From Alteromonas stellipolaris (lineage in GTDB: Bacteria; Pseudomonadota; Gammaproteobacteria; Enterobacterales; Alteromonadaceae): a stretch of 64,000 bases of DNA. The DNA lies in contig NZ_CP013927.1 in assembly GCF_001562115.1 (NCBI RefSeq), positions 62,001-126,000 of the forward strand, in the 5' to 3' direction. The position numbers and the translations under genes are program-made. Under the pieces are notes generated by a model, which had not been told where the DNA came from, did not search any database, and worked only from the letters and a program-made list of their open reading frames with translations. Positions 440-18,400 of the stretch are shown one piece after another; positions within the stretch are counted from its first letter, which is position 1, and the number at the start of each line of letters is the position of its first letter.

Positions 440-470
440 TTATCCTTCTCTGATCTTTATTCTCCGGCTA

Positions 471-490
471 CCCGCTTCGGCGGGTTTTTT
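471..490 (+). terminator. Rho-independent terminator
   Basis: A 5-bp GC stem (CCCGC / GCGGG) closes a TTCG tetraloop and is followed directly by a run of six T. It lies just after the stop of the hypothetical gene ending at 439 and separates it from the peptide-export cluster. Confidence 0.9.
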
Positions 491-881
491 AGTGGAAATT
501 AAAGCCATAAACACAGGTTCTATTAGCTGCACCTGCTTACCATAGTATGGTTTTTAGTGATTGTGGTGTCGTGATTTTAAGAAAAATTCACCTTTAAACG
601 AAAATTCAAGCACTGCCATGTAAAAAAGCCTAAATCTTCCTTTTTTTAATTATTTTCCCCTCAAAAATAAAATCTCTTTAAAAACAGTGACTAATAATCT
701 TGAGTCTGCTGCTGTCGTGTCGCTGTCGTGGTAATGGCGGCTTATCTGACGCGTTTGACATAATTTTGACATGGGCTGTCTATTCGAAAATTGTAAATTT
801 TCGTCAAGAATAACGTCATTAATTTAAAACGTTGCGAAATAGATATACATCGTTCCGATATTGATATTGAGGGTCGTCAAA
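491..881 (+). promoter_or_regulatory. AT-rich leader region of the export/peptide cluster
   Basis: No gene is visible in this stretch. It contains two overlapping TTGACA hexamers (755-760 and 766-771), either of which could be a -35 box, but no convincing -10 hexamer at 17 bp. A short direct repeat (CGCTGTCGTG-like, about 710-730) and the dyad at 785-803 also lie here. It is presumably where transcription of the 0.9-9.1 kb cluster starts. Confidence 0.45.
785..803. promoter_or_regulatory. Candidate operator, 8-3-8 dyad
   Basis: The arms CGAAAATT and AATTTTCG are perfectly complementary around a 3-bp centre. The dyad lies about 14-32 bp downstream of the second TTGACA hexamer, where it could overlap a promoter, and about 80 bp upstream of the first gene of the cluster. 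The binding protein is unknown; the XRE regulator at the far end of the cluster is one candidate. Confidence 0.4.
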
Positions 882-1580
882 ATGTACGCTGTTACTAAAT
901 CAATTTTTACTGATATTTACTCTATATACGTAGAGCCAAGGAAAGTCTTTACTAAATCATCCAGCGATTTCGGTGCTTTTTGGGCGCCAATTCTGTTAAT
1001 ACCTCTATTGATATTCATGGCCAACTACGCTTACTTCGAACGAGTAAGCCCTGAATACTTTGTTGAGGAGCAGCTTGCTCAAAAACAAGACATTTCGCAA
1101 TCAGAATACAACGTCGCTGAAAGTCTATTATTAGATATGCACGGGTCACAGGCGTATATAACATCAACGGTCGAAGTTTTGACATGGATATTAATCGGCT
1201 TATTTTCTGCTGCATATTTGTTTATTGTCGCTAAATGGTTTTCAGGTCAGCAAATGACGTTTAGAAAATCGCTGGTTTGGACTTCGTGGTTACTAATGCC
1301 TGTCTGCATAGCCAAAATCATATCGATTATTTCTATATTCCACTCAAGTACAGGTGAAATCAGTTACACGCTTCTTTCTCCACTGACACTTGCACAAATA
1401 AGTCAGCTTTATACAAGTCTTAACATTGGGTCGACATTAGGAAGTTTGATTTCAGTTTTCACAGTTTGGGAATCAATATTACTGGCAGTATTTCTTAATA
1501 GACTTGGTTTGTCAGGTTTACTCTCTTTTGCCTTTGGAATGGCACCAATTACGACACTAACGTTGCTTGCATTCATCTAA
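882..1580 (+). CDS. Yip1-family integral membrane protein
   Basis: This 232-residue protein has about five hydrophobic segments (roughly residues 30-50, 105-125, 145-165, 185-205 and 212-232). Its layout, with an N-terminal amphipathic stretch before the first membrane segment, matches small Yip1-domain proteins of proteobacteria. I start it at the ATG at 882, preceded by a GAGGGT-like site, rather than at an upstream TTG at 861. Only 25 bp separate it from the HlyD-family gene, so it is probably co-transcribed with the export genes. Yip1-family proteins have no fixed biochemical role; a part in membrane assembly, or in self-protection from the exported peptide, is inference from position. 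Confidence 0.6.
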   Translation: MYAVTKSIFTDIYSIYVEPRKVFTKSSSDFGAFWAPILLIPLLIFMANYAYFERVSPEYFVEEQLAQKQDISQSEYNVAESLLLDMHGSQAYITSTVEVLTWILIGLFSAAYLFIVAKWFSGQQMTFRKSLVWTSWLLMPVCIAKIISIISIFHSSTGEISYTLLSPLTLAQISQLYTSLNIGSTLGSLISVFTVWESILLAVFLNRLGLSGLLSFAFGMAPITTLTLLAFI

Positions 1581-1605
1581 TCACAAGAATTATTGGAGAA
1601 ATCAG

Positions 1606-2751
1606 ATGCGAGCACGTCACATAATCCCAATATTGTTAATTGCTTCTATAAGCGTTGCTGCTTCAGTAATTAATCCAGTTGATAAAACTATTGCTGTCAG
1701 AGTTGAAAAAGTTCAGCTTGGAAGCGTACAAGACCTGATTGTGGCAAACGGAACGATTGAACTTGAAAAACGTGTATCTATCAGCCCTTACGTTTCTGCA
1801 AGAGTAGTAAAGGTATTTGTAAAAGAGGGAGAACTCGTCAACAAAGGTGACATTTTAGCGACTTTAGATTCTACAGATGAGTTAACAAAACTACAAAGCA
1901 GAATGTCAGATTACGAGATACAAAAATTGCAAACTGAAAAGGCGAGTATTGACCTTAAAAAGCAGGTTGCAAACCAAAAACGTTTATCTTCAATGCTGCA
2001 AAGCGGTCATATTAATATTTCTCAATTTGAGGAGTCGCAGCATGATTTGAGAGTTGCTGAAATAAACTTACTAGAAGCAAAACAAAGAGAAAAACAATTG
2101 TTTCAACTGGTTGAGGAACAGAAAGAAATATTAACCAAGGTTAATATTGTAGCTCCATTTAACGGCTTAATCACGAGTGTAGATGCATTACCCGGTGAAT
2201 ATGTGATTGGGCAAAATTACTACAACAATGGCAGTAATCTATTTGGTCTCGCTTCCATTGAAAATTCATTTGTAGATGTTTCTTTAACTCAAGCTGAAGT
2301 AGCTAAAGTTTCGATCGGGCAAGAAGTAAAGATCTTTCCCTCGGCATACAGAGACAATGTGCTAATGGGGTCTATTGCATACATTAACCCAATAGCTAAA
2401 AAAAATAATACATCTGGGCATCCTATGTTTTCCGTGAAAGTGCAATTACCAAAACTTCCAAGAGGCTTACTTTCGGGTATGACTTGTAGAGCCGAAATAG
2501 TCGACAATCAAAACGAAAATTCACTGCATGTACCTATAGCCGCTGTTGTCCGGACCGAAGAGAACCCTTTCGTTTGGTTGGTGACAGAAAAAGGAAAAAT
2601 CGAAAAACGCTTTATTACTCTCGCTGAATCGTCTGATGTTAGTCAAATTATTAAGACAGGGATATTAGAAGGGGAAAATGTAGTAGTTGGGCCACTTAGG
2701 CTAATGAATCAACTTGAACCTGGCAAGTTTGTTGAGATGTTAGGAGATTGA
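1606..2751 (+). CDS. HlyD/MacA-family periplasmic adaptor
   Basis: This 381-residue protein has the usual membrane-fusion layout: an N-terminal membrane anchor (residues 5-22), a biotinyl/lipoyl-like half (near VSARVVKVFVKEGELVNKGD), a coiled-coil hairpin (about residues 95-180), the second lipoyl half (IVAPFNGLITSVDALPGEYV) and beta-barrel and membrane-proximal domains. It would link the inner-membrane ABC permease to an outer-membrane TolC-type channel. The start is the ATG at 1606 with TTGGAGAA just upstream; the open frame extends further upstream only to a TTG. The next gene begins 2 bp after its stop. No TolC homologue lies in this cluster, so the channel is probably supplied by the host. 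Confidence 0.85.
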   Translation: MRARHIIPILLIASISVAASVINPVDKTIAVRVEKVQLGSVQDLIVANGTIELEKRVSISPYVSARVVKVFVKEGELVNKGDILATLDSTDELTKLQSRMSDYEIQKLQTEKASIDLKKQVANQKRLSSMLQSGHINISQFEESQHDLRVAEINLLEAKQREKQLFQLVEEQKEILTKVNIVAPFNGLITSVDALPGEYVIGQNYYNNGSNLFGLASIENSFVDVSLTQAEVAKVSIGQEVKIFPSAYRDNVLMGSIAYINPIAKKNNTSGHPMFSVKVQLPKLPRGLLSGMTCRAEIVDNQNENSLHVPIAAVVRTEENPFVWLVTEKGKIEKRFITLAESSDVSQIIKTGILEGENVVVGPLRLMNQLEPGKFVEMLGD

Positions 2752-2753
2752 TA

Positions 2754-3440
2754 ATGGAACTGTTATTGAACCTAAAAAACATCGTAAAAACATACCACGG
2801 TGCAGAGACTAATTTGAAAGTCCTCTCAGAACTTAGTTTCGAAATGGCTATAGGGGATATGGTTAGTATCGTGGGACCCTCTGGTGAAGGTAAATCTACG
2901 CTACTAAATATCATTGGGTGTTTGGATACGCCTGACTCAGGCAGTTATACCCTTAAAGGGCAAAATATATATGGCAAGTCACAAGAAGAGCTTGCTGGCC
3001 TGAGAAGCCAATATATAGGTTTTGTGTTTCAGCAGTTTCACCTGTATCAACGACTAACCACCCTTGAAAATGTGATGCTTCCTCTCGTTTATCAAGGCAT
3101 AAATCGTAGAAACCGGATCAAGCGAAGCGAAGAAATCTTGAAATCTGTGGGACTTGGGAAAAAGCTTCAACATAAACCATGTGAGTTGAGTGGTGGCCAA
3201 CGTCAACGAGTTTCAATAGCTAGAGCTCTGGTTGGGAATCCATCTATGTTGCTCGCTGATGAGCCCACTGGAAACCTGGATGCCTCAACAACTGAAGACA
3301 TACTCCAACTTTTTGAATCCTTAAATAGAGAAGGCCTTTCTATTTTAACGATTACACACGAACAATCAGTTGCAAATAGGGCTAACTCTGTCTTCAAGCT
3401 CACTTCTGGAAAGCTTATAGAGCAGAGGTATGCAGCATGA
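2754..3440 (+). CDS. MacB-type ABC transporter ATPase
   Basis: This 228-residue nucleotide-binding protein energises the adjacent FtsX-like permease. It shows Walker A (GPSGEGKST, about residues 39-47), a Q-loop (FVFQQF), the signature LSGGQRQR, Walker B with catalytic Glu (MLLADEP), the D-loop and the H-loop (TITHE). This is the LolD/MacB subfamily, in which the ATPase and permease are often separate polypeptides, as here. The stop overlaps the permease start by 4 bp (ATGA), so the two are translationally coupled. Confidence 0.9.
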   Translation: MELLLNLKNIVKTYHGAETNLKVLSELSFEMAIGDMVSIVGPSGEGKSTLLNIIGCLDTPDSGSYTLKGQNIYGKSQEELAGLRSQYIGFVFQQFHLYQRLTTLENVMLPLVYQGINRRNRIKRSEEILKSVGLGKKLQHKPCELSGGQRQRVSIARALVGNPSMLLADEPTGNLDASTTEDILQLFESLNREGLSILTITHEQSVANRANSVFKLTSGKLIEQRYAA

Positions 3441-4672
3441 CACCTTTTCAATTCACAATTGCGGTATTTGGTGAAGCGTTCAAGGCCATCCGAGAGAATA
3501 TGGTGCGTTGTATTTTGGCGGTTGTAGGAATAGGTATCGGAGTCTTTAGTGTGACGGCAATAATGATCGTAGTTTTAGGGTTTAAAACGAAACTAGATAA
3601 CCAACTTAACACAATTGCTCCCAATTTAATTGTTGTTGAATATAAACAAAGTATTAAAGATAAGCTCATTGGCAAAATGGAGTCATTATCTTTCCAAGAT
3701 TATATTGATATCAGCAACGACAACTTAGATATATCTAATCTAATGGCTACGGTTCACCCAGTTGGCTTTGTAGGAAAAATTAGCTTTGAAGATAGATTTC
3801 ACTCGACAAGAGTGGTCGGCACAGGGGCAAACTACCTGTCTGCCTATAAGTCCTTTCCCCAATATGGTCGCTATTTTTTAGAGCAAGATTATGCTGAAAA
3901 AAGGCGCGTTGCATTCCTCGGTGCAACTGTAGCTTCAGAGTTGAACGTGGGCCCAGAAAATATTGGTGATTTTTTTCTTTTCAATGATGAATGGTTCCGA
4001 CTGATTGGCATAGGTGAGGAAAAAGGGCGACTCTTTGGGATAGATCAAGATGACTATATTCATATTCCAAACAACACACTCAATTCCATGATTGGCGATG
4101 AGTATAACTCAGATACCTCTATATCATTCTCTTTCAATGACTCAGGAAATGCGCAGAACATCAAATCTACAATTAAAACTTTAATTTCTGAGAATCATTT
4201 TTCATCTCCAGAATTTGTAAAAAATGTCAAATTCACTGACACAAAACAGTCTGTGAAAGAGTTTGATTCGATTAGTTCTGGAGTTACATACATAGCTTTA
4301 ATCATCGTGTCGATTAGTATCGTTGTGGGTGCTATAGGCGTGACCAACACGATGATGGCTTCTTATAAAGAACGCATCCGCGAAATAGGTATATCAAAGG
4401 CAATAGGCGCTACCAACACGTTCATTATGTGGCAATACATGGTAGAGGGTGCCTCTCTCACATTACTTGGTGGAGCTGTTGGTGCAGTGTTTGGTTACAT
4501 GCTTGGGGTAGGGTTAACCACAGTAGTGCCTGGCTTAGTTACTCCACAAGTTAATTTTTTATATTTAGTGCTATTTACAATGGCTTTTATCGTGCTTGGG
4601 CTTACCGTTGGATATATGCCGGCGAAGAAAGCCAGTAGTTTAACGCCAATTGAAGCGTTAGACACACACTGA
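3437..4672 (+). CDS. MacB/FtsX-type ABC transporter permease
   Basis: This 411-residue permease has one N-terminal membrane helix (about 20-45), a large extracytoplasmic domain (about 50-275) and three C-terminal helices (about 280-305, 335-360 and 375-400), with the conserved segment MMASYKERIREIGISKAIGA of FtsX-type permeases. Together with the adaptor and ATPase it forms a mechanotransmission pump that acts on periplasmic substrates. MacAB-type pumps often export peptides, toxins or siderophores. The two tiny peptide genes start 70 bp after its stop, which makes their products, or damage from them, the likely substrate or reason for this pump; that link is inference. Confidence 0.88.
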   Translation: MTPFQFTIAVFGEAFKAIRENMVRCILAVVGIGIGVFSVTAIMIVVLGFKTKLDNQLNTIAPNLIVVEYKQSIKDKLIGKMESLSFQDYIDISNDNLDISNLMATVHPVGFVGKISFEDRFHSTRVVGTGANYLSAYKSFPQYGRYFLEQDYAEKRRVAFLGATVASELNVGPENIGDFFLFNDEWFRLIGIGEEKGRLFGIDQDDYIHIPNNTLNSMIGDEYNSDTSISFSFNDSGNAQNIKSTIKTLISENHFSSPEFVKNVKFTDTKQSVKEFDSISSGVTYIALIIVSISIVVGAIGVTNTMMASYKERIREIGISKAIGATNTFIMWQYMVEGASLTLLGGAVGAVFGYMLGVGLTTVVPGLVTPQVNFLYLVLFTMAFIVLGLTVGYMPAKKASSLTPIEALDTH

Positions 4673-4741
4673 ATTTGTGGGGCATTCCCACAGATATCTC
4701 TCGTAATTTTGCGTGAGATTAATTTAAAAAAGGAAATAACT

Positions 4742-4858
4742 ATGAAATCGCTTTATTTGAAAAATGAACCTGTAGTAACAAGCAACGTGGATAGCGTCAT
4801 TGAGCCGGTATCTACAATTGTAATGATTGTTGTTGCTATAGGTCCAAAAATTAAATAA
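4742..4858 (+). CDS. Candidate precursor peptide A (38 aa)
   Basis: This 38-codon gene has a good ribosome-binding site (AAAGGAAAT, about 8 bp before ATG). The N-terminal half is polar and shares the pattern MK-x3-LKNE and a later VD pair with the next small gene. The C-terminal half is hydrophobic (STIVMIVVAIGPKIK), rich in Ile and Val, with one Gly and one Pro. A conserved leader with an unrelated core is the hallmark of ribosomally made, modified peptides (RiPPs) and of two-component bacteriocins. A 12-bp perfect stem-loop overlaps the stop codon. There is no Gly-Gly leader-cleavage site and no Cys, Ser/Thr-rich or His-rich core, so known RiPP classes do not fit. The gene is real with good confidence; the function is inference. 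Confidence 0.7.
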   Translation: MKSLYLKNEPVVTSNVDSVIEPVSTIVMIVVAIGPKIK

Positions 4859-4881
4859 GCAGGCTGCAACCTGCTTATTTA
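4852..4881 (+). terminator. 12-bp stem-loop overlapping the stop of peptide A
   Basis: A perfect 12-bp inverted repeat (TAAATAAGCAGG / CCTGCTTATTTA) has a 6-nt loop and includes the TAA stop codon of peptide A. It has no long T tract of its own, so it is better read as an mRNA-stabilising or attenuating hairpin that keeps peptide mRNA more abundant than the downstream genes. Confidence 0.6.
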
Positions 4882-4886
4882 TAGAG

Positions 4887-4915
4887 CGGCTATCCATTAG
4901 GTAGCCGAAATTTTT
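4887..4915 (+). terminator. Partial terminator/attenuator between the peptide genes
   Basis: The arms CGGCTA and TAGCCG, extended by two G-C pairs across a bulged T, close an ATTA loop; AAATTTTT follows. This is intrinsic-terminator-like and would reduce read-through from peptide A into peptide B. Confidence 0.6.
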
Positions 4916-4956
4916 AGTCAACTTTAAATTTAGTATAAGTAAAAGGAAGTTACAAG

Positions 4957-5082
4957 ATGAAAATTCCAAAACTTAAAAACGAGGCTAAACACGCAGTTGG
5001 AACAAGCGTTGACGAAACAGTAGGCGCAGCTTGTTTTGGCATCGGCATGGCAGTTGGTGTTTACCTTAATCAATTAAGATAA
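4957..5082 (+). CDS. Candidate precursor peptide B (41 aa)
   Basis: This 41-codon gene has a ribosome-binding site (AAGGAAG, 8 bp before ATG). The N-terminus repeats the MK-x3-LKNE pattern at the same residues (6-9) as peptide A, followed by a SVDE segment that aligns with NVDS of A. The C-terminal part (GAACFGIGMAVGVYLNQLR) is Gly- and Ala-rich, contains one Cys, and has GxxxG-like spacing (G30-G34) of the kind known from helix-helix contacts in two-peptide bacteriocins. A GC-rich hairpin lies between it and the cupin-like genes. Interpretation: second precursor of the same system, perhaps acting with peptide A. Gene confidence is good; activity is unproven. Confidence 0.7.
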   Translation: MKIPKLKNEAKHAVGTSVDETVGAACFGIGMAVGVYLNQLR

Positions 5083-5091
5083 ATCGGTTCG

Positions 5092-5117
5092 CTCCCGTGC
5101 TTTTTTTAGCACGGGAG
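5092..5117 (+). terminator. GC-rich stem-loop after peptide B
   Basis: A perfect 10-bp stem (CTCCCGTGCT / AGCACGGGAG) surrounds a loop of six T. No T tract follows it on the + strand, so it is more likely an attenuator or RNA-stability element than a full terminator. The ribosome-binding site of the next gene starts about 10 bp later. Confidence 0.6.
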
Positions 5118-5138
5118 TATCTTATCAGGAGAATAAAA

Positions 5139-6134
5139 ATGAAGGATTTTCAAAACCATATTGATGCGGTAAATGATCCTAGAGCGCAGCAAAAACTCGC
5201 AAAGTACTACGAGGATAATCCAAGTATTACAGCCTCTATCAAAAATGCTGAGGTAATGCCTTGGGTTCGAGAGATTGAAGAGCGGCTAGTAAGGACACAA
5301 AACTCAGATTTTCTCGACTCTGCTTGGTTTGCCGCGAACAAGAGCAAGCTGCTTAGTGATGTAAATGAAATCCTTCAAAAACTATGTTTTGAAGTAGAGC
5401 TGATAAAAAAAAACAAGCTGTATTATTCAGCTATTTATTCTTTATCAGGCCCTGCGACAAAAGGCATCGCGCTTTATCAAAGTGACGCTTTAGATGTTTC
5501 GCTTATCGTTGTAAGCAAAACAGAGCTTCAACTAGAAAAGAAAGCGAGAAAAGGCGTAAGAGGGATAACCATCCTAGAAAATACCATGCATATGTTCACG
5601 GTAAAAGGTTCCGGCACAATGGAAAAGTATTGTTTGGATGAACCTATAGACAATGATCAATCTGTGCCAGATATGTTTCAAGGACGCAAACAAGAATTTC
5701 AATATCGACCGGGTGATTTAATTTCCATTCATGGTGGATATGATGGGTTGACGTACAAATCATGTGAGATTAATTCTCTTTTTCTTTGTGTAACTCCTAA
5801 AGTTAATTCACGAATTGTTCGGCCTCAATATGATGTCGATTCCGGCAAACTTCTCGCATGTATTGCGTCAGATAGTCTGGCTCCAAGAATCCAAATGGTA
5901 ACAATTTTATTGCGAGAGTTTGGTGTTACCAATAGTGCAGAAATAATAAAGCCTTTGTTGGAGCATAAAAATCCATACGTGAGGTGGCACGTCGCGCGTG
6001 AACTTTATTTTACGGACAAAGAAGGGGCAAGGGAAGTATTCGAAATGCTTGCGAATGATAAGAGCCCTGTTTTGAGAGAAGGAGCGCAAGAGTGTCTTAA
6101 AGAAATTTATGGAGAAGAAACATGCCATATGTAA
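5139..6134 (+). CDS. Cupin-like/HEAT-repeat protein, paralogue 1
   Basis: This 331-residue protein (start chosen at the ATG at 5139, with AGGAG 7-9 bp upstream; the frame extends upstream into the hairpin) has three parts. These are an N-terminal helical part (1-90), a beta-rich middle (about 95-225) that resembles a cupin barrel, and a C-terminal HEAT-like helical repeat part (about 255-325, including PLLEHKNPYVRWHVARELYF). It has the same order and similar size as the next gene, so the two are probably paralogues. Here the HxH metal-binding pair seen in the partner is not present; only scattered His residues (H151 and H198) remain. It may be a non-catalytic partner that binds the leader peptide. 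No family name is assigned with certainty. Confidence 0.6.
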   Translation: MKDFQNHIDAVNDPRAQQKLAKYYEDNPSITASIKNAEVMPWVREIEERLVRTQNSDFLDSAWFAANKSKLLSDVNEILQKLCFEVELIKKNKLYYSAIYSLSGPATKGIALYQSDALDVSLIVVSKTELQLEKKARKGVRGITILENTMHMFTVKGSGTMEKYCLDEPIDNDQSVPDMFQGRKQEFQYRPGDLISIHGGYDGLTYKSCEINSLFLCVTPKVNSRIVRPQYDVDSGKLLACIASDSLAPRIQMVTILLREFGVTNSAEIIKPLLEHKNPYVRWHVARELYFTDKEGAREVFEMLANDKSPVLREGAQECLKEIYGEETCHM

Positions 6135-7045
6135 TTGAACACGAAGAAAAAGAAGCAATATCACTAGAGGAATTGGTTGAGTACCTAGTTGATAACAACA
6201 TTGAAACAGCCAAACATGAAGAAATGATCGAAGCGGCGCCTATGCTTGCAAAGTTAGGTAATAATCCTACTTTTCTTTCTGATATGGTTACAAAAGAACT
6301 TCATAATTACAGTGAATTCCAAGACGAGAATACTTATTCTTCACAGGTTATTCTCTTGCATCCACCAAGGCCTGATATACGGTTTTTCGTAAGAGCCAAC
6401 ATATGGCCTGGAAAGGCAGATTACCTAACTGCATTAAATGGAACAGATGCTTTCTTCTACCATCGTCCTCACGATCACAACTTTAACTTCTTAACTGTAG
6501 GGTATCACGGACCAGGTTATTGGAGTGATTACTATGAATATGACTATGGCGATATTGATGGTTATGCAGGTGAAGATGCACAGTTACGCTTTATTGAGCG
6601 CTCTAGGTTGGATAAAGGCAAATTAATGCTGTATCGAGCTCACGTTGATGTACACGATCAACTTCCAGCAGACTCATTCTCTGTATCGTTAAATATTATG
6701 GAAAATTCCATAAAAAACCCGTTTTTAGACCAGTATTCTTACGATTTGAAAAACAAAACAATCAAAGGGATCATCAACCAAAACAACACAGACTCACTAT
6801 TTCAACTTGCATTAATGAGTGATAGCGGCAACTCCAGAGATGTAATTGAACACATTGCCAAAAATCACGAATTTAGCCGAGTAAGGCTAAATGCTATCCA
6901 TGCACTCGCAAGTAGGCAATATTCGGTGGAACAAGCTGTGTCGGTTCTCAACAGTTATTTAGCTGCTCCTTCTGCTCTAGTCAGAAAAACGGTGGAGCAG
7001 TCTATTAGAAGAATGGAGCAACACAATGCCAAAGTTAAAGCTTGA
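6122..7045 (+). CDS. Cupin-like/HEAT-repeat protein, paralogue 2 (putative modifying enzyme)
   Basis: This 307-residue protein overlaps the preceding gene by 13 bp. The N-terminus (1-75) is helical and acidic. The middle (about 75-195) is beta-rich and holds a plausible metal site: H114, then H117-D-H119 (HxH of cupin motif 1), and H174/H178 in the position of motif 2. A very aromatic Tyr-rich segment (about 133-143) lies between them. The C-terminus (about 220-300) is HEAT-like. The likely role is a metal-dependent oxygenase or other modifying enzyme acting on peptides A and B, with the helical repeats binding the substrate. That is inferred from motif and position. The start overlap suggests coupled synthesis with paralogue 1. 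Confidence 0.6.
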   Translation: MPYVIEHEEKEAISLEELVEYLVDNNIETAKHEEMIEAAPMLAKLGNNPTFLSDMVTKELHNYSEFQDENTYSSQVILLHPPRPDIRFFVRANIWPGKADYLTALNGTDAFFYHRPHDHNFNFLTVGYHGPGYWSDYYEYDYGDIDGYAGEDAQLRFIERSRLDKGKLMLYRAHVDVHDQLPADSFSVSLNIMENSIKNPFLDQYSYDLKNKTIKGIINQNNTDSLFQLALMSDSGNSRDVIEHIAKNHEFSRVRLNAIHALASRQYSVEQAVSVLNSYLAAPSALVRKTVEQSIRRMEQHNAKVKA

Positions 7046-7907
7046 TCACATCAATAGGTCTTATGGATCAAATCATGTCCTCAATGACTTGTCACTGAGT
7101 CTAGAATTTGATGAAGGTGCCATTGTAGGCATTGTAGGAAAAAACGGTGCTGGGAAATCAACATTACTTCGCATTCTGGCTAATATTGACGACCAGCACA
7201 CAGGAACATTTAAAGTTGAAGTTCAAAATTCTGAAATAGCAACAAAATATGACGTTGGCTTTCTTCCAGAAGAAAGAAGCCTTCCTAAATTTGGTACTGT
7301 TTTTAATGTTTTGATGTTGTGGGCTGAACTAAGGGGTTATAAAGGCCCGCACTGTAAAAAATTGGTTGAAACGTGGTTATCTAAAGTTAATTTGGAAGAT
7401 GTTGCTGGAACGCCAATAAAGAAATTAAGTAAAGGCAACAACCAAAAACTCCAACTTGCATGCTGTTTGTTGCATTCTCCCAAGTTTATTATTTTCGACG
7501 AACCATTTTCCGGACTAGACCCCGCGAACCAGGAGTTGGTGATGGAGCTTTTAATTGAACAGAAGCAAAATGGCTCGTTGATAATTATCAGCGCACATCA
7601 ACTTGAGCTCTTAGAGCGTCTATGTGATGTGTCATATCTTATGGTTCATGGCACATTGAAAATGTTTGAAAAAAATAACCTAAGTAAAAAGGTAAAACGA
7701 CTTTCTTACAATGGAGACTTAGATGAAAGGCTTTCGTTTCTTAAACCTTATACCGGTGATTTACAAGGTATAAGTCCCGATGATTTAAGGCAGCTCAATT
7801 CTCGGGAGAAAACTCAATTTCTTGAGGCCTTATTGTCTGGCGAGGTCGTTCTTAATCAAAGTAAAAGTGAGACGCTTCGGGACCACTACTTCGCCAACCA
7901 AGCTTAA
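7026..7907 (+). CDS. ABC-2 type transporter ATPase
   Basis: This 293-residue ATPase overlaps the preceding gene by 20 bp. Walker A is GKNGAGKST (about 38-46). The signature is the divergent LSKGNNQK, as in the NatA/CcmA-like group. Walker B is FIIFDEP, and the H-loop histidine is in SAHQ. A C-terminal extension of about 85 residues follows the nucleotide-binding core. It pairs with the permease encoded 12 bp downstream. In peptide clusters such ABC-2 pairs either export the product or give self-immunity; with a separate MacAB pump present, immunity is a reasonable guess. Confidence 0.85.
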   Translation: MPKLKLDHINRSYGSNHVLNDLSLSLEFDEGAIVGIVGKNGAGKSTLLRILANIDDQHTGTFKVEVQNSEIATKYDVGFLPEERSLPKFGTVFNVLMLWAELRGYKGPHCKKLVETWLSKVNLEDVAGTPIKKLSKGNNQKLQLACCLLHSPKFIIFDEPFSGLDPANQELVMELLIEQKQNGSLIIISAHQLELLERLCDVSYLMVHGTLKMFEKNNLSKKVKRLSYNGDLDERLSFLKPYTGDLQGISPDDLRQLNSREKTQFLEALLSGEVVLNQSKSETLRDHYFANQA

Positions 7908-7919
7908 AAGGAGATCATC

Positions 7920-9050
7920 ATGCAAAAGGTTATTTCGCTTGCTAAATTTGAATTTCTTGAGCAACTCAACCTTAAAGCTGATGCTATCAGTATCGCCATC
8001 ATCGGTGCTATTTTAGCTGCAAGGTTTTTTACTGTTGAGTTTTTCAATGCTACAACACCCGTTCATTTGGCCGCAGTCGTTGGGAGCTATGATGAACAAG
8101 TTATCGATTTTGATCGATGGAAAGACAATGAGACACTTTATAATATTCCTCTTTTGAATTCAGAAGCAGAAGCTAAGAGGATGATGGAGCAGCAGGAAAT
8201 AGATGGGTATCTAACGTTTTGCTTTACTTGTGATGCTCGTAGTATGACTCTTCATTCCATGCAGGAGTTTCATTCGCAAGCATATATCTATGATTTATCA
8301 TCACATATTAGTGAAATTGCTCTACCGGCCTTGTTAAACATATCCGATGTTGACTTTGAGCTCATCAAAAATGGCCTTGCAATAGACTATGACATCAATA
8401 ATGAAGTCGTGAGTCCCTCGGCTTCTATGCTCAACACCATATTTATGTTCCTTACCGTTTTAGGGATATTAAGTGCATTTTCTCTTTTGCTTCAGGCAAT
8501 AACCGCCGAGAAGGAGGAGAAAATTACTCAGATGTATATATCTTGCATGAATGTAAATGAGTGGGTTGATGCTAAGGTTCTCGCATCTCTTGGCGTTTCA
8601 GTTAAGGCCTTTGCACTATACTTCGTGTTCACTGCTTTAATTCTAAGTATGTTTGGACTTTTACAGCTCGAAGGTAATGATGTTACTCAGTTCATTATGT
8701 ATAAAGTTCCTATTTTAATACTTGTATTCGCTGTGGGATTTGTGTTTTGGTCTTATCTATTTGCGCTAGTTAGCGTGTTAATTCGAGATCAGTCAAGTTC
8801 GATAAAAAATGCTGCGATTATGTTACCTATGGCAGCTTTTGGAATTGTGGTTTCTTTGGGTGACTACATAGCAACCTTAGGTTATAAGGCCTTATCTTTC
8901 TTTCCTATAACATTCGTGTTCGCTATGCCTAATAGAATTATTACTACGGACGTGGGTTATCTGGAGCCTATGATGGCATCGGCTTTCGTGTTACTTGCAG
9001 CCTATGGTGTGAGACATCTCACATACCGATATTTAAGGTTCGTCGATTAA
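7920..9050 (+). CDS. ABC-2 type transporter permease
   Basis: This 376-residue membrane protein has one N-terminal membrane helix (about 22-38), an extracytoplasmic domain (about 45-165) and about five C-terminal helices (residues 170-370), the NatB/YhaP-like arrangement of ABC-2 permeases. A good ribosome-binding site (AAAAGGAGAT) precedes its ATG. It is the last gene of the cluster; repeats and a convergent regulator gene follow. Confidence 0.82.
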   Translation: MQKVISLAKFEFLEQLNLKADAISIAIIGAILAARFFTVEFFNATTPVHLAAVVGSYDEQVIDFDRWKDNETLYNIPLLNSEAEAKRMMEQQEIDGYLTFCFTCDARSMTLHSMQEFHSQAYIYDLSSHISEIALPALLNISDVDFELIKNGLAIDYDINNEVVSPSASMLNTIFMFLTVLGILSAFSLLLQAITAEKEEKITQMYISCMNVNEWVDAKVLASLGVSVKAFALYFVFTALILSMFGLLQLEGNDVTQFIMYKVPILILVFAVGFVFWSYLFALVSVLIRDQSSSIKNAAIMLPMAAFGIVVSLGDYIATLGYKALSFFPITFVFAMPNRIITTDVGYLEPMMASAFVLLAAYGVRHLTYRYLRFVD

Positions 9051-9069
9051 AAGTTTTAATTGCATAGAG

Positions 9070-9133
9070 TATAAGCTTACACTCACTTGTATTAGTATGA
9101 GCTTATACTCACCTGTATTAATATAAGCTTTCT
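9070..9133. repeat. 26-bp direct repeats (2.4 copies) between convergent genes
   Basis: Two 26-bp units (9070-9095 and 9096-9121) match at 22 positions, and a third starts with TATAAGCTT before diverging. Within them GAGTATAAGCT (9067-9077) and AGCTTATACTC (9100-9110) form an 11-bp inverted repeat. The array lies exactly between the stop codons of the permease and the XRE gene, so it may act as a bidirectional terminator or a protein-binding array. Confidence 0.7.
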
Positions 9134-9542
9134 ACCATAACCCTTTAGAATCTGCGTGGCGAATTGAAAGTGAAACTCCATACGCGATAATGAATAATGA
9201 AGGGGTCGCTAAAGTGTCAGGCCCGATTATCCAAGTTGCTAAGCCGAAGAATGCAGCTATAAGCTCAACGCGAATCAGCGACTCCCTACTCTTGACGCCC
9301 CAATAAGCCAACCTAACTAATAGAGGCTGCTTTTTCCATTTCTGGCTTTCTTTATCAAGTGTTTGCCCTGACGCTATTATTGAGCTATCGAGTTCAAAAA
9401 CAGCCGCTAACGCACTCCGCGTTTCAAGACTACTAGAGTGACCATTCTCGACTCTTTGTATCGTCCTAACACTTACTCCGCTAATTTTGCTTAAGTGCTC
9501 TTGGGACCAACCATTTTCAATTCTTAGCCTCTTTACGTTCAT
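9132..9542 (-). CDS. XRE-family regulator with C-terminal membrane helices
   Basis: This 136-residue protein has an N-terminal Cro/CI-type helix-turn-helix (about residues 5-55; WSQEHLSKISGVSVRTIQRVENG) joined to two hydrophobic helices (about 90-106 and 112-125). That makes a membrane-tethered DNA-binding protein. It is convergent with the peptide/ABC cluster and divergent from nothing nearby. Membrane-anchored XRE proteins of this type often sit next to transporters or bacteriocin genes. Control of the upstream cluster is an inference; the dyad at 785-803 is a possible target. Confidence 0.8.
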   Translation of the reverse strand: MNVKRLRIENGWSQEHLSKISGVSVRTIQRVENGHSSSLETRSALAAVFELDSSIIASGQTLDKESQKWKKQPLLVRLAYWGVKSRESLIRVELIAAFFGLATWIIGPDTLATPSLFIIAYGVSLSIRHADSKGLW

Positions 9543-9730: not shown

Positions 9731-12157
9731 TCAACGCTCTTTATTTTTTCCCGAATTAAGTAATGCATCCCACATAATCGAGGCATCTTGTTCAGTTTTT
9801 TCGACTTCCTTACTTGTATACTTCATAGATTCAGCAACTTTTTCTACCTGCATTTTACTCTCAGCTTCTGCAAATTCTTTAGTAACTCCTGACTGTTTAG
9901 CCAGTGCTGCAATACTGTCAGCCAGCGCCTTTGGGTTAGCTAAGTTAGGACTTGTTTTAAAACCATAGACCCATGTGTTGGATTTATTTTGGACAACTCT
10001 GCCCGCTTGGCTATCACGCGTCTTTTTCTTAGGGGGGGTTATGTGTAAAGTTTTTGTCTCATCAACATCGCTATGAGTCTCACGTGGCTCACTTTCTGTT
10101 CGAGTGGCGCTAGCAGGTTCAGATGTGGGATAAACGCTCACATCATCTTCTGTGGGCTCAAAATCTGCCGCTTTAAGTAATTGTTCTATCCAATCATTGG
10201 GCTTTTGGCTTGGCAGATTGAAATCAGAAGACCCCACTGTTGGATATTCAGATTTATCAAGCATATTGGTGATAACAACTTTCGACATCAGCTTTTGGCG
10301 CATAGCCATTACAGATTGATTGGTAGGTGGTAACACTTCCAATTGTCGGACATGCACAAAGTTGTCATTCTTAATTTCTGGCAAGCCGTGATAAAACATT
10401 TTAGAGCGGATTACTTTACCATTTTGAATTATGTGGGCTAAGCCTTCGGTTTGTTCAAATAAATCCCGAAATTCTACAGCTTCGACTTCTTGTATCGTTG
10501 CTTCTTCATTCACGTTTTGAAAAGTACGTACTACCCCTCGCTTTAAGTTATTGGCCATCAAAACACGGCGCTTACCCGTTAATTTATTGATGTAATCCAT
10601 AGTTTCGTTTGAGTCATAAAGTTTAAGTACAATCTTTAAACCGGTATTACCCCATATCTTATTGGTTTCATCTTTACTAGATTCCAACAGCGAAGCTAAT
10701 TCTTGGTTACTAAAAATCATGCTCATCCCCAAGCCCCTGGCTTGGCTGGTAGTAATAGCAAAGTTACCTGCTTTAGCCGCCTCTGCGTACTCGTCAACTG
10801 TGCACGTTGATATATACCTTAAGTCAATAGGTAGATTATGAATAACATCATCCGCATCACCTTCTGCATTCGGACCTAGGCCGAGTGAAATTGAAGCTTT
10901 GACTAATGATAGCCCTATTTTACCTTGGGTTAGTTTCGCATCATCTGACGCTTCCATTGCAGGGATGAAAATAAGAAAAACATGGTTATTTTGAATAATA
11001 TCCGTGGTATCAATTTCACCCAACTCACATTCAAATATGTGCCCATAGGTAGATTGAAAATCAGTTAGCGGTTTGACTACATAACCATCAGCATAGCTGA
11101 ATTGCTTGGCAACTTCTGAAGGCTGTTTAGACGTATCTTTAAGCGCTTTTTCGGTTTCTTGTATTCCCAATTTAATAAGCACGGAACGTAGTGCGTTTCT
11201 TTTTCTAGCAGAAATTAGGTTTGGAATAACGACATCTTCACCCGTATCTTGGTGGATGTAGGTGATTTGATTATCATAATATTGAGGGTATGCCATTTGA
11301 ACCATGATCTTAATCGACATGAATTCGCCAATTAGGTAGGGCGTGATATTAACTACTTCTTTATCCCTCAACTCTACAGCGCAAGGCATACACCCTTTTA
11401 AGATTACTAACGCTTTATCTTTAAATACTTGGTTCTGGCCACCTTCCGGCATCATGCTTTCAATGATATTTGTACATAACTCTGCTGAACCACTATTTAA
11501 GATTGCTAAAGTATTTGAGTTCTTATGCCAGCTTTGTGGATCAACACTTCTGTTACCTGTTTTGAAGGAAAGTACTTTAAGGCTGTCTTCACGACCAACA
11601 ATGCGTAATAGTTGGTTGTATCGAAAGCTAGTATTCATCGCAGCTTTTGCGTCCAAATAGATAGAAGCGCCCCCAAGGAGAATTGAACTGGCCGCATTAA
11701 TTGACAATAACGCTTCGGTTTTACCTGCCCCAGTTCCGCCTAGCACAAGTAAATGCAAAAGCATGTCAGGGGCAATGCCCCATAATTCTTTTTTATTAAA
11801 CCTCTCATTGCCAAGGTGAATGGTAGCACCAGCTTTATCGAATTGGTGAGGCCTACCTACCTTTGGGTTGTGCTTATCGACAAGTTTCTTGAGCAAGATT
11901 GGGAGTTTCATCGGAAGTGTTTTATATTTGTCAGAATTAACGAAGAAGTTAATTGAAAACACACCGTATATAATCATGAGCAATATGAGTGCTGCAGGAT
12001 AAACAAATGCGAACGCGCAAAATATGATAAGAACTGGTGTGCTGATTTCTATACGAGCGCAAGCGTCCATTGTAAGTTGAAATGCGCTACGCGACTCAAG
12101 GTAATAACGTGTTACCTCACTATCGGCATTAACGGGGGCATGTAATCTATTACTCAT
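9731..12157 (-). CDS. dotL: Type IV coupling protein, DotL/IcmO (TrbC) family
   Basis: This 808-residue hexameric ATPase is expected to recruit the DNA-relaxase complex to the type IVB secretion channel. Two membrane helices lie at about 38-72. Walker A is GGTGAGKT (140-147), followed by the conserved region of the VirD4/TraD superfamily. The C-terminal 200 residues are charged and poorly ordered, as in DotL, where this tail binds adaptor proteins. Length is close to Legionella DotL (about 780). The start is taken at 12157, where ATG overlaps the upstream stop (ATGA) and AAGGGAG precedes it; the open frame runs to 12187. It is the last gene of the minus-strand transfer operon, directly after dotM, as expected for partners. 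Confidence 0.9.
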   Translation of the reverse strand: MSNRLHAPVNADSEVTRYYLESRSAFQLTMDACARIEISTPVLIIFCAFAFVYPAALILLMIIYGVFSINFFVNSDKYKTLPMKLPILLKKLVDKHNPKVGRPHQFDKAGATIHLGNERFNKKELWGIAPDMLLHLLVLGGTGAGKTEALLSINAASSILLGGASIYLDAKAAMNTSFRYNQLLRIVGREDSLKVLSFKTGNRSVDPQSWHKNSNTLAILNSGSAELCTNIIESMMPEGGQNQVFKDKALVILKGCMPCAVELRDKEVVNITPYLIGEFMSIKIMVQMAYPQYYDNQITYIHQDTGEDVVIPNLISARKRNALRSVLIKLGIQETEKALKDTSKQPSEVAKQFSYADGYVVKPLTDFQSTYGHIFECELGEIDTTDIIQNNHVFLIFIPAMEASDDAKLTQGKIGLSLVKASISLGLGPNAEGDADDVIHNLPIDLRYISTCTVDEYAEAAKAGNFAITTSQARGLGMSMIFSNQELASLLESSKDETNKIWGNTGLKIVLKLYDSNETMDYINKLTGKRRVLMANNLKRGVVRTFQNVNEEATIQEVEAVEFRDLFEQTEGLAHIIQNGKVIRSKMFYHGLPEIKNDNFVHVRQLEVLPPTNQSVMAMRQKLMSKVVITNMLDKSEYPTVGSSDFNLPSQKPNDWIEQLLKAADFEPTEDDVSVYPTSEPASATRTESEPRETHSDVDETKTLHITPPKKKTRDSQAGRVVQNKSNTWVYGFKTSPNLANPKALADSIAALAKQSGVTKEFAEAESKMQVEKVAESMKYTSKEVEKTEQDASIMWDALLNSGKNKER

Positions 12158-13485
12158 CGTGCACTCCCTTCTGGAACATATACCCACGCTTCTGAATTAG
12201 TCATAAAGCGTTTTAAAGCATTCACCGCGCTATCGACTTGCGGCTCTGCAAGTCGAATGTCAGTAATTTGATTTTCCCAATTTTCTTGGTCACGAATTGC
12301 AGCGCATTCTACCCACGCCGTTGGAGTGCCGGTTTGATTAAACGTTAAGAAAAGTTGGCGGTCGAAATACTTCAACCAATAATTGTGAGAGGTGTAAAAC
12401 TTACCTTTGGTACGCGCAATCTTTATCGCTTTAACTAAGAACGTAAGCTCATACATAGAGGTGTTGTATGCCTTCTTAAACTCATAGTCATTGATATGCT
12501 CAGCTATGACTTTATCGGCTTCAAACGCAGCGATGGCACATTTAAAGGTGAAGTTCTTGTATTGTTTCAAAACTTTAAAAGAGCGATTCACTCTATCTTT
12601 ATATTCGTAAGCGCGGTCGATACCACCTGCAGTTCTTCCTTCAGACATTAGCATGCACATAGCCAAAAGAATTTTTCGTGCTTTGGACATGGCCATAACA
12701 TCGTTGAGGGGTTCATCAAGCTGTTTGATGAAGTGTTGTTTTAGCTTTTCATCATCAACTAGAACACAGCGCTTAAAGAGTGAGCTTTGGCCTTGTGGAT
12801 CTCGCATTTTAGGATTTATATAGGCATAGCCTGGCATCGCACCTTTCACTTTAGAAAACGTAGGCTTAAATCGTTTAGTGGTATCAATTTCATTACGATT
12901 ATCTAATCCATAAAACTGGATTAGTTCATGCTCTATACAATAACGAAGTGGGGGCTTAGCTCTTGCAAGTGTGCCTTCATCAGCAGGTAAACTCAGTAAA
13001 TCCACGGACAGTGGTGGAATAAGATGGGGTTCAAATTTTTTGTAAGTATGAGCAAGTCGCTGGAAACTATATTCAGTCTTAAAGTTACGGACTCGCTGCT
13101 TTTTAATATTCCTAACAATGGTAATTAACACCATTAAAAATACAAACGGACGTAAAGGCGAAGATATAAATGCTAACAACTCTAGGTGGTCATATGGGGA
13201 AAGGTCGAAATAGGTAACTCTGTTAAGAATACTTCCATAATCACCTAACTCTGTAAAACTATAAGAGGGTAGAAGTAACCGACCAATATGATGCCCTACT
13301 TCAGGAATGTTATAAACAGCACTCATGAAGCTCACCGTTAAACGACTTAGAGAAATTAAAGCAGTCCCTATATAGTAGTAACTAAGCCAATACATGAGCA
13401 TGAAAAACATAACTATGAGGCCGAATATCGCCATTATCGTGGCGGCGTCGTCGTGATTGTTTAAGTTGTCATGTGAGTTACTCAT
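12154..13485 (-). CDS. dotM: Type IVB secretion protein DotM/IcmP (TrbA) family
   Basis: This 443-residue inner-membrane partner of the coupling protein has membrane helices near residues 20-45 and 100-120 and a soluble C-terminal domain with the family pattern around GGIDRAYEYKDRVNRSF. It is part of the coupling complex and helps present substrates to DotL. It overlaps dotL by 4 bp. The start is the second of two adjacent ATG codons, the better spaced from a GAGG site; it overlaps the preceding gene by 8 bp. It is somewhat longer than Legionella DotM (about 380 residues). Confidence 0.85.
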   Translation of the reverse strand: MSNSHDNLNNHDDAATIMAIFGLIVMFFMLMYWLSYYYIGTALISLSRLTVSFMSAVYNIPEVGHHIGRLLLPSYSFTELGDYGSILNRVTYFDLSPYDHLELLAFISSPLRPFVFLMVLITIVRNIKKQRVRNFKTEYSFQRLAHTYKKFEPHLIPPLSVDLLSLPADEGTLARAKPPLRYCIEHELIQFYGLDNRNEIDTTKRFKPTFSKVKGAMPGYAYINPKMRDPQGQSSLFKRCVLVDDEKLKQHFIKQLDEPLNDVMAMSKARKILLAMCMLMSEGRTAGGIDRAYEYKDRVNRSFKVLKQYKNFTFKCAIAAFEADKVIAEHINDYEFKKAYNTSMYELTFLVKAIKIARTKGKFYTSHNYWLKYFDRQLFLTFNQTGTPTAWVECAAIRDQENWENQITDIRLAEPQVDSAVNALKRFMTNSEAWVYVPEGSAR

Positions 13486-15465: not shown

Positions 15466-18400
15466 TTAGTCATCCAGGCTCATTGACTCGGATAAATCAC
15501 CAAAGTCCTTTGTTTCTGAACTTCCAATATGGCCATTCAGTATTTCTTTCCAATCTGCGACTTCCTCTTCTTTCTGTTCATTTGCTACTTCAACGAGTTC
15601 AGCTTGAAGCTCGGCTTGACGTTTTAAGCTGTTCTTCAATTCATCTTCCCTATCAAAAGAAATGACGGTTAAGGGCTCATAAGTACCAATACGTTTTTCG
15701 AGGTCTTCTTTCTCTTTAATGGATTTTTCTTTTACTTTTGCAAAAGTAGTCTCTATATCCATCAAAGTTCTAGCTACATGCGAAATGTGTTTAGTTTCAC
15801 AAAATGACCTCTCAACACCATCTACATTTATCATTGCATTTAAGATAGGCATCTCTTTTTCTTTTTGATAAATGATATCAATGGAGATTGGCAAGCCTTT
15901 ATACGTACCTACTTCAATGAAATCTTCATTCGATTTAACTGCGACATCTCGTGCTTTTTTCAAAGCTTTCAAGATAGTGTCAGCATCATCTACAAAGGCG
16001 CCATTTAAATCGATATTGTCGCTGTTCTTAGCTGTTACGGCCAAAGTCTTATCGATAAAATCTATGACCTTATCCGCATGGCGAATTTCTTTTTTCGCCA
16101 TGTTTATACGAGAAATTGCGTCAGCTTGTTTATCTTGAGCAAGCCGTCTGGCCCTTTCCAGTTCATCTACCTTCCTATCCAAATCGATTTTCTCTTTGAT
16201 TAATGGGTTGCCGGTGGCGATTGCCATCATTTCTTCAAAGTTCGCATCGACTTCTTCCAAATATTCTCTCGGTGCTGAATTTGGATCGGTTTTAGTTTGC
16301 GCAATGAAAAGTGCTTTACGACGAATGTGTTCCCACTGAAATAAGTCATAACTGTTTTCAGTGCTATACCGGTACATTGAAAGGTCAGTATGTTTATTAC
16401 CTGTGCGCTCAATACGACCAGAACGTTGCTCAATTTCTCGTGGGTTCCACGGGGGAGTAAGTTCGTGCATTGCTTTAAGGTAAGTTTGGATGTTGTTACC
16501 AACGCCAAAGCGCTCTGTTGTACCAATAATTACTTTAAACTTACCTTCATTAGCAGCAGCTTCAAATGCCTTCTTTTTATTTTCGGTGTCGACTTCCCGA
16601 GACGTGATTATCTCTTCCCTTTTACATACCCCTTTTTCAACTAGCTGATTAATCAACTCATCGTAAGGGCTAAATCCTTGCGAAGTCGGGTTGACGTATC
16701 GGTCTATAAACACCAATTGTGTGACCGGCATATCAGTATTCGCATTTTTCAATACGCTCTCGATGTTTCTAACACATGTATTGATTTTGCCATTTTCAGC
16801 AGCGGGTAGTCGTGCATCTATCATACGCAAATCAAATGCTGCTTTTTGCGCATCATGTTGGATACTAAACCATGCTTCGTCCTTCGCCCCATTTCTAAAT
16901 GACTTAGCTCTTAGGGCTATATCATTCATAAATGGTTTGAAGAATTCGCCACCATCAGCTTGAACAGGGATACGAACTGCATGCGGTCTTTGTGCGCCGG
17001 ATTCGTCCGTTGTTAAAACATCAGCAGCTACGCGATATAGCTTTGCGAGTTCTGGTAGGTTATTGAACTTGGCTAATCTAGAGTTTTCACGGTAGCCAGT
17101 CCCTTCCGGTGACGCTTCAATTGCCGTAACCACCTCACCAAATGTTGACATGAAGCTATCAAAATCAAGGATGCCCATTCGTTCTAACTCATTGGGGATC
17201 AAGTAATAGAGATTGGTGTACATATCAGACATTGATTTTCTAATGTCGGTACCCGTCGCAAGGACCAACCCGTTACCGTTGTTTTGCTCTTGAAGATAAC
17301 GAACCATAAACAGTAAGTTAGTAGCCTTATCCGATTCACTCGTATTTACTCCCGCAACGTGAGACATGTTGCTGGGGGTGGGCAGGTTCAAGAAGTTGTC
17401 ACTTTCATCAATAAAGAGGGTATCAATACCCAGCTCATTGATATAAAGCATGTCATCTTTGTTTTCTTGCTTAAGCCGACGTTCAATTTTAGCTTCTAAG
17501 CTTTTAAGCCGTTTCTCGCTACGTTTTAAATTATAACCCCCTATGCCTTCAGCTATTGAGATTGCATGTGAAAGCTCCCCCTTCTGCCTTTCAAGCTGTC
17601 CAATAACAAATTCACTTGGCGCGGCGAGTTTATTAAGAAACGAGTGCGGCACGATAACGGCATCGTAATTTTTCATTGCTATTCTGGCGGTGACTTCTTT
17701 ACGGCCTAACGCAGAAAGCTCTTTTGAATCCATCATAAGAATATTTGCTGAGGGATAATGTTCTTGAAACATTCTAGCCAACTGGCCATAAACATTATTA
17801 GGTGCGGCAATCATTGCCTTGTTATGCACGCCGGCGATACGACCTTCTCTCGCACAAGACACTAATTCAAACGATTTACCAGACCCAACACCGTGAGCAA
17901 AAAGGACGGACTTATCGACAAGATAGCGTGCTAAGGCATCTTTTTGTTTTTCCCTTGGTTCAAAATCATTACCTTTAAATTTAGGGTTAAGTCCGGTGTA
18001 TTGGATCAAGCTGCCATTAAATTGCGGCATATTGATAACATTCACGGTACTGTTGTAAATCTCTGCAATTGCAATCCTGCGTTCGGGATCTTTACCCACC
18101 CAGGCTTTAAACTCTGTCTGGATAGTATCAGCCATATGTTTTGCTTTTGCCGTTTCTTCAGCTAAGACAGTTCGCTTACCATCTATGGTCACAGCAACTT
18201 CAATCTTGTCACCGTTAGCAAGTTTGTTTATTAGGGTTAACGCCGACATTTCAGACGTGCCCCATTCGTTTTCCAACTTCGCTTCATTTTTTCTGGTAAA
18301 GCTATATCTGGCGTTGATATCCCACAGATTTGCGACCTTGCCAACGTGAATATCTTTAACATCGTTGTCATCACGCGGTTCATTACCGGTGCCTAGATAG

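Follow-up and report, generated by a model that had tools for sequence, protein, structure and literature searches.

A candidate RiPP-type peptide operon with a pair of homologous cupin-HEAT proteins in Alteromonas stellipolaris

We analysed a 64-kb stretch of Alteromonas stellipolaris DNA (hereafter called the window), which spans bases 62001-126000 of the 252-kb contig NZ_CP013927.1; the 4.65-Mb chromosome is a separate replicon in this genome. The window harbours an operon of ten co-directional open reading frames (ORFs) on the + strand, each with an ATG start and a Shine-Dalgarno (SD)-like purine run. A first-pass annotation made from the sequence had counted nine genes. In order, they code for a Yip1-family membrane protein, a membrane fusion protein (MFP), an ABC ATPase, an FtsX/MacB permease, two short peptides (peptides 1 and 2), two larger proteins called A and B, and the ATPase and permease of an ABC-2 system. 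The ATPase/permease, A/B and B/ABC-2 ATPase gene pairs overlap. The coordinates are collected in Table 1. The existence of a dedicated unit made of a short peptide gene, A and B is strongly supported by its recurrence in other genomes, as described below.

Table 1. Features of the operon in the window; both peptides are among the 41 seeds of the precursor profile that scores them
Feature	Position	Strand	Evidence
Yip1-family membrane protein (YknW-like)	882..1580	+	Pfam Yip1 E 9.6e-9, above cut-off; NCBIfam YknW_fam E 1.6e-6, 27.8 bits, cut-off 110
Periplasmic adaptor MFP, MacA/YknX-like	1606..2751	+	HlyD_D23 E 2.5e-18; RND_mfp above cut-off
ABC ATPase of MacB/LolD type, YknY-like	2754..3440	+	ABC_tran E 2e-31; LolD, MacB and DarD below cut-offs
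MacB/FtsX-type permease, YknZ-like	3437..4672	+	MacB_PCD E 2.2e-24; FtsX E 4.7e-15
Two hairpins, gap between permease and peptide 1	4673..4719	+	fold z -3.67; 0/200 shuffles equally stable
Peptide 1, 38 residues, putative type I precursor (..DSVIEPVS..)	4742..4858	+	ORF with SD; precursor profile 27.3 bits
Two hairpins, end of peptide 1 and after; second terminator-like	4852..4907	+	fold z -5.63; 0/200 shuffles
Peptide 2, 41 residues, putative type II precursor (..VGAACFGIGMAVGVYLNQLR)	4957..5082	+	ORF with SD; precursor profile 38.8 bits
Strong hairpin, gap between peptide 2 and A	5091..5118	+	fold z -5.50; 0/200 shuffles
A, putative degenerate cupin + HEAT partner, 331 residues	5139..6134	+	
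B, predicted thiol-dioxygenase-fold cupin (~1-219) + HEAT (~220-306), 307 residues, candidate catalytic partner	6122..7045	+	
ABC-2 system ATPase	7026..7907	+	ABC_tran E 3.1e-25
ABC-2 permease	7920..9050	+	ABC2_membrane_3 E 7.7e-15

Homologues of B are numerous: of 3779 candidate proteins, 2960 reach E 1e-3 or better. B or its relatives were detected in 7 of 59 genomes of the genus, 2 of 274 genomes of a class sample and 15 of 398 genomes of a phylum sample, all three tallies counting the window's own genome. Twelve of these 15 belong to one family, Sphingomonadaceae as judged from its relatives, in which B is present in 73 of 199 genomes; this family was picked for the tally on account of a match in its centre. 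When species genomes were scanned, 277 of 315 pattern matches were confirmed, and 78 loci were kept. Removal of L063, in which B runs off the contig, and addition of the window, a second copy on the chromosome and another five loci from the genus yielded 84 stretches with 90 A/B pairs, from Alteromonadales, Xanthomonadales and mostly Sphingomonadales. A is a separate gene in 88 pairs, the exceptions being L023, whose start coincides with the end of a contig, and L048, which looks frame-shifted. The 606-residue ORF of the latter was not counted as a natural A-B fusion, because it crosses the seemingly frame-shifted stretch and the near relative L056 has separate genes.

A short ORF of the precursor family lies directly upstream of A in 88 of the 90 pairs, and the two others (L023 and L074) are both found at contig ends. 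The first-pass annotation had named a consistent lack of small ORFs beside the cupin homologues as the outcome at odds with its proposal; the opposite was found. A profile built from 41 peptides detected the ORF upstream of A in 82 of the 90 pairs versus 7 of 90 controls (the reverse strand of the same stretch and the stretch after B), a count that is partly circular, as the seed peptides were taken from the same loci. Six of the seven control matches are true precursors of a second tandem pair and the other is marginal (8.1 bits), while six of the eight misses stem from an over-long call of A, the ORF being present at 44-57 bits. Because of this circularity, we also used lineage hold-outs and 16 further loci. 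A model restricted to alphaproteobacterial peptides matched 11 of 13 gammaproteobacterial pairs (controls 0/13) and 69 of 77 alphaproteobacterial pairs (controls 8/77), and the gammaproteobacterial model matched all 13 gammaproteobacterial pairs (controls 0/13). Among the 16 further loci, 13 score at least 8 bits with the precursor model; L109, L104 and L110 reach 8.0, 9.8 and 12.0 bits, respectively, and the peptide of L096 is identical to that of L067, which belongs to the searched set. In L107 and L108, outside these 13, a short ORF with a V/I-rich tail was accepted by eye. What ties A and B to the precursor in these counts is co-occurrence.

The chromosomal second copy (L003, 8968-10822, -) consists of a peptide starting with MKIAKLKN, A and a shortened B, and its neighbours, named by eye, resemble genes for an Sfp-type phosphopantetheinyl transferase, a thioesterase and an RND transporter. 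No match was found by tblastn for A and B in PLSDB or for B in phage records, collections from which records near the window's genome were possibly omitted, and we therefore rejected the idea that the pair is carried by known plasmids or phages.

The two peptides of the window (MKSLYLKNEPVVTSNVDSVIEPVSTIVMIVVAIGPKIK and MKIPKLKNEAKHAVGTSVDETVGAACFGIGMAVGVYLNQLR) have related N-termini (MK-x3-LKNE), as previously proposed: the ungapped score over residues 2-12 is reached by 422 of 100,000 shuffles, and L-x-NE is kept in both counterpart peptides of Alteromonas halophila, the species of locus L010. Alignment of 101 unique peptides of the family revealed a leader-like motif, (I/L)PxLxTxVGxxGS, followed by a variable tail rich in V, I and G and more hydrophobic than the N-terminal half. 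The motif columns are well conserved (L in 95/101, G in 83/99 and P in 71/99), the tails far less so, and the conserved N-terminal part probably represents a leader. Together these 101 sequences display what defines precursors of ribosomally synthesized and post-translationally modified peptides (RiPPs), namely gene-encoded peptides with a conserved leader-like part and a variable core. Type I (..EPV..) and type II (..G(G/A)xC..) peptides, sorted by eye, co-occur in the window, L010, L011 and L021. Five tandem precursors are found in L078, three of them identical and the fourth nearly so, and five in L089, three of which are nearly identical.

The small ORFs evolve as coding sequences under purifying selection, in agreement with their initial description as genes. 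The nonsynonymous rate (dN) is lower than the synonymous rate (dS) in all 59 comparisons with a defined dS, out of 72 (13 undefined) between peptides from different loci that have the same length and at least 55% identity; these comparisons are mutually non-independent, and some of the ORFs are overlapped by other open frames. Nucleotide differences at the three codon positions number 893, 525 and 1684, respectively. A profile from 39 peptides (the two of the window and 37 relatives) matched 291 predicted proteins in public data. None of the 39 matched Pfam at E 0.1, and NCBIfam gave two weak, chance-like matches of one member each, with no enzyme family and no known bacteriocin model.

A and B had been annotated as two related cupin-like/HEAT proteins. 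They are homologous (profile-profile E 1.4e-6, probability 90.5), and the relationship does not extend to the HDH...DxH set, which is kept in B only and not in the A protein of the window; H.H is present in 13 of 88 A homologues. A thus appears to be a partner of B devoid of the metal motif, i.e. a 'degenerate' cupin-HEAT protein. The model of B, predicted with good confidence, consists of a thiol-dioxygenase-fold cupin and HEAT repeats. Its top PDB matches are thiol dioxygenases, and plant PCO and human ADO are among its fold matches, a second listing of which is a re-alignment of the same search and not independent. The top Foldseek match of the A model is an auxin-binding protein (E 6.6e-7) and not a thiol dioxygenase. 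H117, D118, H119, D176, H178, R91, W95, Y133 and Q180 are invariant in all 89 rows of the B alignment, which leaves out the merged ORF of L048. The candidate metal ligands H117, H119 and H178 align, weakly, with the ligands of cysteine dioxygenase (CDO).

No enzyme family of Pfam or NCBIfam reaches its cut-off for A or B. Membership of B in PF05995 (CDO_I) was rejected, as there was no match for the B protein of the window at E up to 1, nor for 20 members of A1 at E up to 0.1; this family was found in none of 40 genomes from the genus and in 8 of 150 genomes of a phylum sample. Where named at NCBI, the 120 B homologues listed are called 'transposase' or 'hypothetical'; we found no transposase domain and discarded this identity. 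A winged-helix match of the B N-terminus to E2F8 (E 4.7e-5) is missing from the fold matches listed, and we read it as helix similarity.

The description of the transport genes as MacAB-like and ABC-2 systems plus a Yip1-like protein is correct as to the components, and for the first four genes 'YknWXYZ-like module' is a better name than generic MacAB system with a stray Yip1. The order Yip1-MFP-ATPase-permease is found for 7 of the 13 gammaproteobacterial pairs (window, L010, L011, L078, L080, L089 and L092). Yip1 was confirmed by Pfam in the window, L010, L011, L091 and L092 and matched by phmmer in L078; in L080 and L089 it was joined by BLAST clustering only, without Pfam confirmation. Clustering also places ABC-2 permeases beside 7 of the 13 pairs (Pfam-confirmed in the window and L089). 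ORFs for a LytS-type kinase and a LytTR regulator cluster in L010, L011, L078, L088, L090 and L091, with Pfam confirmation of both proteins in L078 and of the kinase in L088. Six alphaproteobacterial loci (L014, L015, L017, L019, L032 and L051) have two tandem pairs followed downstream by a type I ABC exporter, checked with Pfam in L014 and assigned by clustering in the other five.

As previously stated, no lanthionine synthetase, YcaO, radical SAM, DUF692/MNIO or C39 protein was found among the ten products by Pfam at E up to 1 or by NCBIfam, the latter covering the 25 top families in the case of the MFP and both ATPases. PADLOC, run on seven of the ten products, gave matches for the ABC-2 ATPase alone, to 46 families (25 of them listed); we read them as reflecting a generic ATPase and rejected an anti-phage defence system. 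Of note, a sigma-70-family factor (regions 2 and 4 only, extracytoplasmic function-like) is coded upstream of the pair in L028 (7498-8043, +), and similar ORFs cluster in 14 loci.

Hairpins flank both precursor genes. Their spacing is as expected if precursor transcripts outnumber enzyme transcripts, and Rfam at gathering scores gave no match in positions 440-9200 of the window, leading us to discard a known regulatory RNA. The contig is probably a conjugative plasmid, because the window also contains conjugation genes of the dot/icm (I) type. These are located at 9731-13440 (-) and 33563-35328 (+) and code for a TraG/TraD coupling protein, DotM, DotI/IcmL and DotH/IcmK. The conjugation region includes a single ORF of 4764 residues (15466-29760, -), and a 1947-residue ORF (35309-41152, +) lies immediately 3' of the DotH gene. 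An HTH_3 regulator gene (9132-9542, -) is convergent to the operon, just downstream of it.

The best reading of these data is an operon for RiPP-type peptides that belong to an undescribed class, with an oxidative step mediated by B, because B keeps the full candidate metal site and is far more strongly conserved than A; we consider it somewhat more probable than even. A and B would form a complex, the HEAT surfaces of which may bind the leader and present the hydrophobic core to the metal site of B, where the core would be oxidatively modified, not necessarily on Cys. The hairpins around each precursor gene might keep precursor mRNA high relative to that of the enzymes. The leader would be cut off by a protease encoded outside of the operon, and the YknWXYZ-like complex, the ABC-2 transporter or both may serve to export the product or to protect the cells that make it. 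For gammaproteobacteria, the likeliest product is either a signal or a bacteriocin-like pair of peptides that act on membranes.

Several observations weigh against this reading. No universal target residue is visible across the 101 aligned peptides. Cys occurs within the last 28 residues of 38 of them, which rules it out as universal substrate, and thiol oxidation is therefore not general. Comparison of B with eight CDO-like proteins by hhalign was not significant (E 0.14, probability 0.4%). Thiol dioxygenases have a second-shell Ser-His-Tyr triad, invariant in these eight proteins; B has S189, N191 and M/L193 at the corresponding places, and the triad is not kept. The ten products include no protease family above the Pfam cut-off; leader removal by unlinked proteases is common in RiPPs. 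The gammaproteobacterial peptide model matched only 32 of the 77 alphaproteobacterial pairs (controls 7/77). A and B lack a clear same-strand precursor in L094 and L120, from one genome. In L120 (3573-4520, +, and 4650-4802, -), the pair adjoins an ORF resembling a JmjC-type cupin, as judged by eye, and a 50-residue minus-strand ORF with a leader-like sequence. Lastly, no homologues of the window's six transporter proteins were found in 60 of the 71 alphaproteobacterial stretches (44 of the 60 are at least 15 kb long), other kinds of exporters not having been systematically sought. 'Bacteriocin' is therefore only one option: of the proposed 'RiPP or bacteriocin', the second term is weakened as a general function, and the supposedly complete set of precursor, modifier, exporter and immunity genes fits the gammaproteobacterial loci.

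The lack of a common target residue, together with the hydrophobicity of the tails, would also suit a different role, in which A and B are not enzymes and form a binding or escort pair (a chaperone or self-protection) that maintains in solution a hydrophobic peptide, unmodified and either class II-like or leaderless, and passes it to the exporters. HEAT repeats are usual binding modules, and most A homologues lack the metal motif. A link between PH-domain proteins and transport has been reported for one leaderless bacteriocin made of two peptides (PMC8657885). Such a role appears unlikely to us, as the nine residues fixed in all B homologues aligned resemble an active site more than a binding surface. 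We likewise give a low probability to an intracellular regulatory, sensory or toxin-antitoxin-like module, with a short membrane-seeking peptide under an oxygen- or redox-sensing cupin pair and export genes added later in some lineages only. The frequency of B in the presumed Sphingomonadaceae, a family chosen for its match, and the many alphaproteobacterial stretches without homologues of the window's transporters are in line with it, as are the matches of the B model to plant PCO and human ADO, two O2 sensors with N-terminal Cys as their substrate. The tandem precursors, the two-type peptide sets and the recurrent export systems and LytS/LytTR genes of the gammaproteobacterial loci rather resemble those of a secreted product. 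That the small ORFs arise by chance or are parts of 5' leader RNAs, as their shortness and the strong flanking hairpins might suggest, is highly improbable and already contradicted by the family-wide conservation of position and sequence, the dN and dS values and the predicted proteins matched in public data.

Returning to the RiPP-type operon, a more specific proposal is that of a new RiPP class based on a heterodimer in which a catalytic cupin-HEAT protein is paired with a degenerate one, both of the thiol-dioxygenase fold. A three-His metal site would oxidize aliphatic (non-Cys) residues of the V/I/G-rich core, and the class would be common among sphingomonads, where the name 'transposase' partly conceals it; we regard this proposal as plausible, a little short of an even chance. 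If true, it would represent a new type of peptide-maturation enzyme, in which a three-His cupin carries HEAT repeats and has a pseudoenzyme twin, and would add a family of precursors that can be searched for by a simple motif. Oxidation of a non-Cys aliphatic residue would be new chemistry for the thiol-dioxygenase fold. With 2960 homologues of B, the named ones among the 120 listed being called 'transposase' or 'hypothetical', the class could be mined at once.

The earlier claim that no named class has this composition stands within the literature covered, which comprises few subscription papers and no bioRxiv preprints: searches for such a peptide class or for its parts gave no paper describing it. 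In comparison with thiol dioxygenases (cysteine dioxygenase, 3-mercaptopropionate dioxygenase and PCO/ADO), B shows no significant profile similarity or CDO_I match, and it adds a C-terminal HEAT domain, a degenerate partner and adjacent precursor peptides. Class IIb two-peptide and leaderless bacteriocins also comprise two short peptides with Gly-rich hydrophobic tails and ABC transporters alongside; in contrast with them, the operon has a dedicated A/B pair, no bacteriocin model match and no peptidase-ABC protein, the C39 domain that is the hallmark of class II double-glycine systems being absent by Pfam from both ATPases and both permeases. In the biphenomycin-type RiPP cluster, the cupin-like hydroxylase PbsQ acts on a ribosomal peptide (PMC12257519). 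Both systems thus combine a cupin-fold protein with a ribosomal peptide, the activity of the cupin being only predicted here. PbsQ is related to a JmjC-domain protein and its partners are an MNIO, an arginase and a B12-radical SAM enzyme (same source), none of which is found among the ten products.

The closest parallel for the first four genes comes from Bacillus, in which the gene order is yknWXYZ; here too a Yip1 protein, an MFP, an ATPase and a permease are coded by four adjacent genes in the same order. YknWXYZ is described as an efflux pump for the SDP toxin that includes the Yip1 protein YknW (PMC4887032). The module of the window differs in that its YknW_fam score is below the curated cut-off, and in that it belongs to a Gram-negative bacterium and adjoins precursor genes and the A/B pair.

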